Made by a program: the position numbers and the translations under genes. From Actinomycetes bacterium (GTDB lineage: Bacteria > Actinomycetota > Thermoleophilia > Gaiellales > F1-60-MAGs149): a stretch of 64,000 nucleotides of DNA. Of this stretch, positions 6,459 to 41,016 are shown in pieces. The DNA is taken from contig JANYCN010000072.1 in NCBI GenBank assembly GCA_025360225.1, positions 1-64,000 of the forward strand. Direction: 5' to 3'. The stretch's first letter is position 1. Every line of letters starts with the position of its first letter. Below the pieces are notes generated by a model. The model was not told where the DNA came from and did not search any database. It saw nothing but the letters and a program-made list of their open reading frames with translations.

Positions 6459-6735
6459 CAGTGGTCTGATTGTGAGATGGCGTGGTCATTCGCGCGCCTG
6501 GATCGTCCTGCGCTTGTCGGCTCTGCCACCCGTCGGGTGGCTCTACCAGCCAGCTGCGGCTTCGCGGGAACGTCGCGCGCCGCTTGCACTTAGTGTGTCA
6601 AGGCCTTCGCCTTGACACGCGTGCGAGCGGGCGTGCTATCCAGCACGCCCGCGATCAGCAAGCCCTGCGCGACGCGCGACGCTCCGGCTCGCTCCAGACA
6701 CCCGATGACCATGTCATTTGCCAATCAGACCACTA
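6459..6735. repeat. MITE-like inverted-repeat element, copy B (full length)
   Basis: A 277-bp element bounded by GTGGTCTGATTGTGAGATGG on the left and ACATGGTCAT-type sequence ending CCAATCAGACCAC on the right, i.e. imperfect inverted termini of about 30 bp, with TA just outside the right end and CA at the left. The interior contains the hairpins GTGTCAAGGC-CTTC-GCCTTGACAC and GCGGGCGTGCT-ATCC-AGCACGCCCGC. It is the inverted partner of copy A. The left edge sits in the PIN toxin remnant; the right edge supplies the stop codon of mrp. No convincing coding frame is present. Confidence 0.85.
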
Positions 6736-26095: not shown

Positions 26096-26242
26096 TAGTG
26101 GTCTGATTGTCAAATGGCATGGTCATTGGGTGTCTGGAGCTTCGCAGCTCGCTGGCAGAGCCACCCGACGGGTGGCCGAGCCGACAAGCGCAGGACGATC
26201 CAGGCAGTCGGATGACCACGCCATCTCACAATCAGACCACTA
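26096..26242. repeat. MITE-like inverted-repeat element, copy C (internally deleted)
   Basis: A 147-bp element bounded by TA-GTGGTCTGATTGT and ACAATCAGACCAC-TA, with extended imperfect termini (CAAATGGCATGGTCAT / ATGACCACGCCATCTCA). It shares GGGTGTCTGGAGC at one end and GACAAGCGCAGGACGATCCAGG at the other with copy B, but lacks the central hairpins. This looks like a deletion derivative. It lies between fumC and the cyclase gene, 12 bp from the latter's stop codon. Confidence 0.85.
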
Positions 26243-26254
26243 GGCTAAGGCTAA

Positions 26255-39613: not shown

Positions 39614-39679
39614 CGGAGCGCTCCTCGTTTGTCCCATCCGCTCACGCCTGAGCGACGAATGGTAACATTGACGCTACAC

Positions 39680-39970
39680 ATGGTACACGCCCTCGATGCG
39701 CTTGGAAGCCCGGTCCGGCGTGAGATCCTGACCGCGCTCCGGACGACACCGCTGGCCGTTGGACAGCTCGCTAAGCGGTTCCCGGTGAGCCGACCCGCGA
39801 TCTCCCGTCACCTCCGGCTCCTCGAGGACGCCGGGCTCGTGGAGCACCGGACGGACGGCACGCGCAGCGTCTACCAGGTCAGGGTCCAGGGCTTCGGCGC
39901 CGTCCGCGACTACCTCGACGGGTTCTGGGACGTCGCGCTGTCACGGCTCGAGGAGCTGGCGGAGGAGTGA
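39680..39970 (+). CDS. ArsR/SmtB-family regulator
   Basis: 96 aa. The winged helix starts ALDALGSPVRREILTALRTTPLAVGQLAKRF and has the recognition segment VSRPAISRHLRLLEDAGLVEHRTDGTRSVY. It lacks CxC metal motifs, so it is probably of the metal-independent type that pairs with SRPBCC proteins. The ATG at 39680 fits the family N-terminus; an ATG at 39659 is possible. The stop overlaps the following SRPBCC gene by 4 bp (ATGA-type), the normal two-gene module, here broken by an insertion. Confidence 0.85.
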   Translation: MVHALDALGSPVRREILTALRTTPLAVGQLAKRFPVSRPAISRHLRLLEDAGLVEHRTDGTRSVYQVRVQGFGAVRDYLDGFWDVALSRLEELAEE

Positions 39971-40568
39971 TCGAGCGCAGCGTTCACCTCCGCTGTCACC
40001 GTGCCCGTGCGTTCCAGCTGTTCACCGAGCAGGCGGGCGACTGGTGGCCCCGTGACCTGCGCCACACGAGCGACCACCGGAGCGAGATCAAGATGCTGGT
40101 GCTGCGTCCGGTGATTGCTGTGCTGCTCGTCGGTGAGGGGCAAGGCTGGCAAGCGACGGCGAGGGAGCTTGCCGGGGCAAGTGACCGAGCTGGAGCGCTG
40201 CTCGCCCGGCCATGACGGGCGAGGTTCCAGCCGCCGCTCCGCAGCCCCGTCGATCAGTACAGCAATCCCCGGACGCTGCACGAACCGAGGGCCGGTTCTT
40301 CGAGCGGGCGGAGGATGGGGCAGAGGTCGAGCTCGGCCGGGTCACGACGTGGGCGCCACCTGACCGGATCGACCTCGACTTCTATCCGGGCACGGACGCC
40401 GACCATCCGACCCTCGTGAGCGTGCGCTTCTCGGATGAGGGCGACGGGACCATGGTGCACGTCACGCACCACCCTGGCCCCGCGAGCGTTGCGCTGTGGG
40501 ACGAGCGCGTCGGCTCGTACGTCCGGTCCTGGTCGCTGGTCCTCGCGGCGATCGAGGAACGAACATGA
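39967..40568 (+). pseudogene. AHSA1/SRPBCC gene split by a MITE-like element
   Basis: The N-terminal part (RAFQLFTEQAGDWWPRDLRH) and C-terminal part (EGRFFERAEDGAEVELGRVTTW...HVTHHPG) are consecutive pieces of one SRPBCC domain. Between them lies a 183-bp inverted-repeat element. The two remaining ORFs (39967-40215 and 40212-40568) are in different frames and touch as ATGA, so two peptides might still be made, but the hydrophobic cavity of the fold is divided. Other members of this ArsR-linked family are about 150 aa and uninterrupted. Confidence 0.8.
40099..40281. repeat. 183-bp MITE-like element with 31-bp terminal inverted repeats
   Basis: The left end begins GTGCTGCGTCCGGTGATTGC and the right end, read on the other strand, GTGCAGCGTCCGGGGATTGC; over 31 bp the two match at 27 positions. 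The interior has further dyads, such as CTCGCCCG..CGGGCGAG and GCAAGC..GCTTGC. There is no transposase-sized ORF and no clear target duplication. It is unrelated in sequence to copies A-C. Confidence 0.75.
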
Positions 40569-40596: not shown

Positions 40597-41016
40597 ATGC
40601 CTCGATTCTCCACGACAGCGACGATCGCCGCGACGCCCGACGCGGTGTGGGCACTCCTGACCGACGCGCCCGGGTACCCGACCTGGAATCCGACCGTGGA
40701 GCGCGTCGACGGCGCGATCGTGCCGGGCGGCCGCATCACCGTGCGGGCCCGGGTCAGCCCGGGGAGGGCGTTTCCCGTGAAGGTGACGACGTTCGATCCT
40801 CCCGCGCGGGTGGTCTGGACCGGCGGGATGCCGCTCGGGCTGTTCCGCGGTGTGCGGACGTTCACGCTGACCCCAGACGACGGCTCCGTCCGGTTCTCGA
40901 TGGAAGAGGTCTACAGCGGACCGCTCACACCGCTCATCGGCCGTACGATCCCCGACCTTCAACCAGCGTTCGACGCGTTCGCGGTTGCGCTCAAGGAGCG
41001 CGCAGAGGCTCGGTGA
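40597..41016 (+). CDS. SRPBCC-family protein
   Basis: 139 aa. The START-like fold is visible from TTATIAATPDAVWALLTDAPGYPTWNPTVERVDG and the late helix PDLQPAFDAFAVALKERAEA. Such proteins bind hydrophobic ligands or act in lipid/polyketide metabolism; ligand unknown. TACCAT lies 7 nt before the ATG (leaderless). This promoter contains TGTTACCAT, the reverse complement of the ATGGTAACA found upstream of the nearby arsR gene, hinting at shared regulation. It is convergent with the ABC-F gene, with a 1-bp gap. Confidence 0.82.
   Translation: MPRFSTTATIAATPDAVWALLTDAPGYPTWNPTVERVDGAIVPGGRITVRARVSPGRAFPVKVTTFDPPARVVWTGGMPLGLFRGVRTFTLTPDDGSVRFSMEEVYSGPLTPLIGRTIPDLQPAFDAFAVALKERAEAR

Follow-up and report, generated by a model that had tools for sequence, protein, structure and literature searches.

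A short IS630-type MITE very probably splits an ArsR-linked AHSA1 gene in an uncultured actinomycete

We analyzed a 64,000-nucleotide stretch of contig JANYCN010000072.1, hereafter called the window, in which a 183-bp element lies between the two halves of an AHSA1/SRPBCC gene. The insert is very probably a non-autonomous, RUP-like MITE mobilised by an IS630 element (Tc1/mariner superfamily), which was inserted at a CTAG-like site and thereby split and inactivated AHSA1. The locus presents a regulator-linked gene of an uncultured actinomycete that has been interrupted by an IS630-type MITE, and the transposon that likely drives this MITE was identified.

The interrupted AHSA1 gene and its uninterrupted orthologue

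The features of the locus are summarized in Table 1. Pfam searches matched the ArsR protein to the HTH_20 and HTH_5 profiles, and the stop codon of its gene overlaps the start codon of AHSA1 as GTGA. The AHSA1 profile and the adjacent ArsR gene are both present. The C half of AHSA1 passes the PF08327 cut-off, as does an intact orthologue; the 42-aa N half is too short for a profile match of its own. An intact second SRPBCC gene (40598-41016; Polyketide_cyc2, E 5.8e-21) is located directly downstream of the broken one.

Table 1 Features of the split ArsR-AHSA1 locus and its MITE in the window.
Feature	Coordinates	Strand	Evidence or remark
ArsR-type winged-helix regulator gene	39659..39970	+	PF12840 E 7.3e-16, PF01022 E 6.3e-15
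AHSA1/SRPBCC 5' part, including the final TG before the MITE	39967..40098	+	DNA alignment to the orthologue up to GATGCT
AHSA1/SRPBCC 3' part	40282..40568	+	PF08327 E 5.6e-5, over cut-off; 52/93 identity to the orthologue
ORF1, AHSA1 N-terminal fragment, GTG 39967 to TGA, 82 aa	39967..40215	+	runs 38 codons into the element
ORF2, ATG 40212 inside the element to TGA, 118 aa	40212..40568	+	
MITE, short form, type A ends on both sides	40099..40281	.	inverted repeat, genome copies, module map
Left terminal inverted repeat, type A	40099..40129	+	27/31 against the right repeat; 20/23 against the L087 IS630 3' end
Right terminal inverted repeat, type A	40251..40281	-	20/23 against the L087 IS630 3' end
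Left arm module, common to B- and C-ended sister elements	40135..40172	+	97% to the arm consensus
GTGACCGAGCTGGAGCGC segment, also in B and C elements and one D element (L009)	40181..40198	+	
Right arm module with 8-bp hairpin (CTCGCCCG/CGGGCGAG), ATGA overlap in its loop	40201..40245	+	
Presumed left target TA copy, now TG	40097..40098	.	adjoins GTGC; from junctions of other copies
Presumed right target TA copy, now GA	40282..40283	.	from junctions of other copies

The uninterrupted orthologue was found in a relative of the same order (locus L032, JANYJX010000007.1, Actinomycetes bacterium isolate GL140_4_metabinner_37). Its gene order is that of the window, namely a small gene on the opposite strand, ArsR, and AHSA1, with the same GTGA overlap, and its AHSA1 is a single uninterrupted open reading frame of 143 aa. 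Between the window and L032, ArsR was identical at 74/96 positions, the N half of AHSA1 at 25/42, and the C half at 52/93. In the DNA alignment, the left part ends at GATGCT and the right part restarts at CGAG, and the element is missing from L032. Removal of 185 bp (40097-40281) gave a single frame equal in length to the AHSA1 gene of L032 and matching it codon for codon; across the junction, the rejoined protein reads ...HRSEIKM-RT-EGRFFERAEDG..., and that of L032 reads ...PRSEILM-LA-SGRFWERATDG.... The empty site was read from this orthologue, which is about 56-60% identical; the insertion site there is CTCG.

The genome of the window (3.24 Mb, 89 contigs) contained 34 matches to the 183-bp element, and no match was found in the 60 relatives searched. 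After matches were merged by eye, approximately 29 distinct loci carried A, B, or C arms or ends. These copy numbers are lower bounds, as they were counted from the loci around matches in a fragmented assembly whose contigs are often broken at repeats. Another full copy, L008, has the ends of the window copy and was identical to it at 118/128 aligned bases (92%), but has lost 46 bp internally. Because copies exist elsewhere in the genome, the orthologue lacks the element, and the joined flanks restore the frame, we regard the 183 bp as an insertion. A preliminary description of this DNA had proposed a MITE-like insert between the halves of one AHSA1 gene behind ArsR. The syntenic orthologue, its match to the rejoined protein, and the genome copies all bear this out, and neither an orthologue that conserves the insert as coding sequence nor a lack of copies and empty sites was encountered.

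The coordinates and repeat counts of that description also held: the element has 31-bp terminal repeats matching at 27/31 positions when written out, and a repeat-finding tool extended them to 35 nt with 86% complementarity. Its order is end, left arm, GTGACCGAGCTGGAG, right arm, end. It has the size and terminal repeats of a MITE and contains fragments of open reading frames only, with no transposase gene. The region 40096-40283 folds at -119.2 kcal/mol, compared with -88.8 kcal/mol (sd 4.7) for dinucleotide shuffles (z = -6.5, 0/200). At the target site, the left side of the window copy reads CTGG and the right side GCAC-GA, and the orthologue has CTCG. The two target ends of the window copy, TG and GA, differ from each other. 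Sister junctions are mostly CTA or CTC, and a duplication of 2 bp is indistinguishable here from one of 4 bp. TG and GA may represent a mutated TA duplication.

An IS630 element as the likely driver

Searching with the type A end led to three contig ends (L078, L079, and L082) that share one sequence beginning CTAGTGCAGTGTCCGGTGTTTGGTGTGCTGAT. A fourth contig end, L087, begins CTAGTGCAGTGTCCGGTGATTGGTGT. The first three are copies of one end of an insertion sequence and L087 is its other end, and all four stand at CTAG. The L087 end runs straight into an open frame terminating in IFTSRNDLTEKLESFITTYNQTAQPFAWTYAGKPLTI. In tblastn searches, this frame showed 50-56% to annotated IS630 family transposases of Streptomyces and Kitasatospora plasmids; the identification rests on tblastn because the 37-aa transposase C-terminus gave no match in Pfam or NCBIfam. 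The type A repeats agreed with the L078, L079, L082, and L087 ends at 19-21 of 23 bases, and none of 200,000 shuffles reached 20, whereas B, C, and D ends agreed with them at 8-11 of 23. The window copy and L008 each have two type A ends, and L007 has one.

A DDE_3 (IS630) profile search of the same genome found nothing, and a full IS630 body is absent from the assembly. If the assembler collapsed a multi-copy insertion sequence, this would explain both why contigs end there and why DDE_3 gave no match. The insertion sequence end had no exact match in the named genomes scanned. The CTAGTGCAGTGTCCGG ends likely belong to this IS630 driver, the complete body of which was not recovered, and an IS630 of the L087 type in the same genome is the likely driving transposon of the window MITE, judging from end sequences. 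Two intact IS630 elements elsewhere have ends of the same style as type A. L090, an annotated IS630, has CTAGTGCTGCACCG on both sides and begins CTAGTGCTGC..CCG; L153, which encodes a DDE_3 protein, is bounded on either side by CTAGTGGTTCATCCTGC and begins CTAGTGG. L090 is part of a Streptomyces sp. NBC_01718 plasmid (21608-25709), where its IS630 is flanked by two copies of an IS701-family element in inverted orientation.

ISY100 and IS630 duplicate TA (PMC2170065), and IS630 prefers the TA in CTAG, according to the title of Tenzen and Ohtsubo 1991 as cited in PMC2170065. Both elements resemble the window MITE in ends like type A and in the TA duplication presumed for it, and the CTAG preference of IS630 is comparable to its CTAG-like site, but they are autonomous and encode a transposase, whereas the MITE encodes none. 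In the proposed course of events, the IS630 transposase would mobilise the MITE in trans, and the MITE would enter the AHSA1/SRPBCC gene, which follows the gene of its ArsR regulator, at a site resembling CTAG. Insertion would probably duplicate TA, add 185 bp, and break the frame. The function of AHSA1 would be lost through the insertion; against such a loss, its C half still keeps frame and codon bias.

The nearest working analogue is RUP of Streptococcus pneumoniae, a comparison that concerns the way of working. RUP is attributed to IS630-Spn1 and, like the window MITE, is short and palindromic and has ends matching an IS630 of its own genome; it uses a TA target, as is presumed for the window MITE. 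Its sequence probably differs; the window MITE is G+C-rich and actinobacterial, and its family combines optional inner modules with ends of several kinds. In pneumococcus, a kinase gene split by a RUP insertion was annotated as two CDSs (PMC3049150; PMC2229807).

Reading frames of the split gene and other explanations

The stop codon of ORF1 and the start codon of ORF2 overlap as ATGA in the hairpin loop GCCATGA of the right arm of the element. The L008 copy has the same bases in this loop; therefore, the ATGA is element sequence and not an adaptation. No Shine-Dalgarno sequence was found before ORF2 in the window sequence. The GC3 values of the two AHSA1 halves were 0.88 and 0.87, in contrast to 0.68 and 0.56 for the element frames, indicating flanks that once were coding sequence and have decayed only to a limited extent; the contrast says nothing of present function. 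Neither half of AHSA1 would form a complete SRPBCC fold. The split gene is more likely a pseudogene, and for annotation ORF1 and ORF2 represent one broken gene. The preliminary description had seen a new two-cistron arrangement in the ATGA overlap. The overlap exists as described, but we found no sign of ORF2 translation, and the ATGA derives from the element hairpin loop.

It is improbable that the split gene still functions, either as two translationally coupled polypeptides that together form one SRPBCC domain or with ORF2 as a new protein. The ATGA overlap and the retained frame of the C half, with its GC3 of 0.87, are what such a gene would have, and MITEs have made ORF fusions in other bacteria (PMC2229807). 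On the other hand, the ATG of ORF2, with no Shine-Dalgarno sequence before it, belongs to the element, the parts of one domain would be separated and would carry 38 and approximately 24 added residues encoded by the element, and an open frame of 93 codons in DNA of 70% G+C is a weak sign of selection. We therefore prefer the reading as a gene inactivated by a MITE.

An origin of the mobility in another transposase of the same genome, IS5-like (L069) or IS701-like (L070/L071), is still less probable. Within the assembly, DDE_Tnp_1 matched at these loci only, and the visible IS701-like end is also near CTAG, but the visible IS5- and IS701-like ends are unlike the type A repeats, whereas IS630 ends resemble them. 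The IS5- and IS701-like fragments were rejected as drivers for this reason. That the 183 bp is a structured RNA or a lineage-specific coding piece, with no insertion at all, is hardly credible. It would account for the strong folding of the region, and one weak Rfam match, to MIR1437, was obtained, but this match, at 29 bits, was far under the cut-off (gathering score 168), and neither the repetition of the sequence in the genome nor the orthologue and the restored frame agree with it. An IS630-driven MITE insertion thus accounts best for the locus.

The transposase fragments named above (L069 in G000:C26, L070 in C35, and L071 in C87) are located at contig ends, and the IS5-like one is apparently inside a D element.

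A mosaic family of MITEs

The window copy represents the short form within a mosaic family of MITEs, in which common inner arms and optional hairpin modules are combined with differing terminal repeats. A module scan over the loci gave the general order end, left arm, m2, m3, GTGACCGAGCTGGAG, m4, m5, right arm, end, where m2 to m5 are optional hairpins. The ends were of type A on both sides in the window copy and L008, and of type B on both sides in L015, L020, L025, L028, L093, and L098. Hybrids were found in L007 (A/C) and L021 (C/B). L018 has C at both ends in part, its degraded side being judged by eye. The ends are dissimilar among types; the left arm matched one consensus at 84-100% in most A-, B-, and C-ended copies, mostly at 84-89% in B-ended and at 95-100% in C-ended ones.

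A further type, D, with ends CTAGTGGTCTGATTG, is represented in the window at 1-302, about 6461-6733, and 26096-26243. It was scored at 40 or more places in the genome, with 117 distinct ends in the loci fetched, and many contigs start or stop in it. The preliminary description had called the 183-bp element unrelated to this MITE. The window copy itself does lack the D core, and its terminal repeats differ from those of type D, but the statement fails at the level of the family. A core of 71-77 bp containing m2 and m3 is common to type D and to B/C elements, sisters with the same arms as the window copy, at 96-99% identity, and the D copy in L009 contains the 15-bp GTGACCGAGCTGGAG segment and m4. 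Both kinds of element are located at CTAG-like sites and have ends beginning GTG. C-T-(A/C) precedes 82/117 distinct D ends, and TA or GA are the usual right-hand bases. D copies have also entered A, B, and C copies or lie directly against them (L029, L077; L002, L012, L107; L026, L010), and in L029 and L077 they adjoin stubs of type A ends.

We tentatively propose a mosaic system in which the same inner hairpin modules are combined with four or more kinds of terminal repeat (A-D), and in which every kind presumably serves as signal for an IS630-type transposase of its own. Exchange of ends would keep the passenger core spreading after the loss of a transposase, and the A/C (L007) and C/B (L021) elements would be intermediates or themselves mobile. 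This reading has somewhat less than an even chance of being correct. A single gene-splitting insertion is ordinary and known from other bacteria; the hybrid-ended family is the less usual aspect. Common cores with different ends, including hybrids, allow one to ask how non-autonomous elements switch transposase.

Modular elements are known elsewhere. BOX of S. pneumoniae and S. suis is modular, and in S. suis the end sets A/C and E/F surround the same boxB modules (PMC3049150); unlike the window MITE, it has not been attributed to IS630. Correia/NEMIS of Neisseria has two size forms that differ by an inner block, TA at its ends, and ORF fusions (PMC2229807), but differs from the window MITE in sequence and host. 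As far as titles and abstracts on IS630-linked MITEs with CTAG or in actinobacteria tell, the mosaic family may have been described earlier.

The base adjoining D ends is A in 69/117 and C in 36/117 (CTA|G or CTC|G). The two sides of a D copy often differ in this base, one having A and the other C, which could be due to CTAG loss or to the way in which ends are joined. CTAG is depleted in the window, with 16 sites, 4 of them at MITE junctions, compared with approximately 60 expected from trinucleotides.
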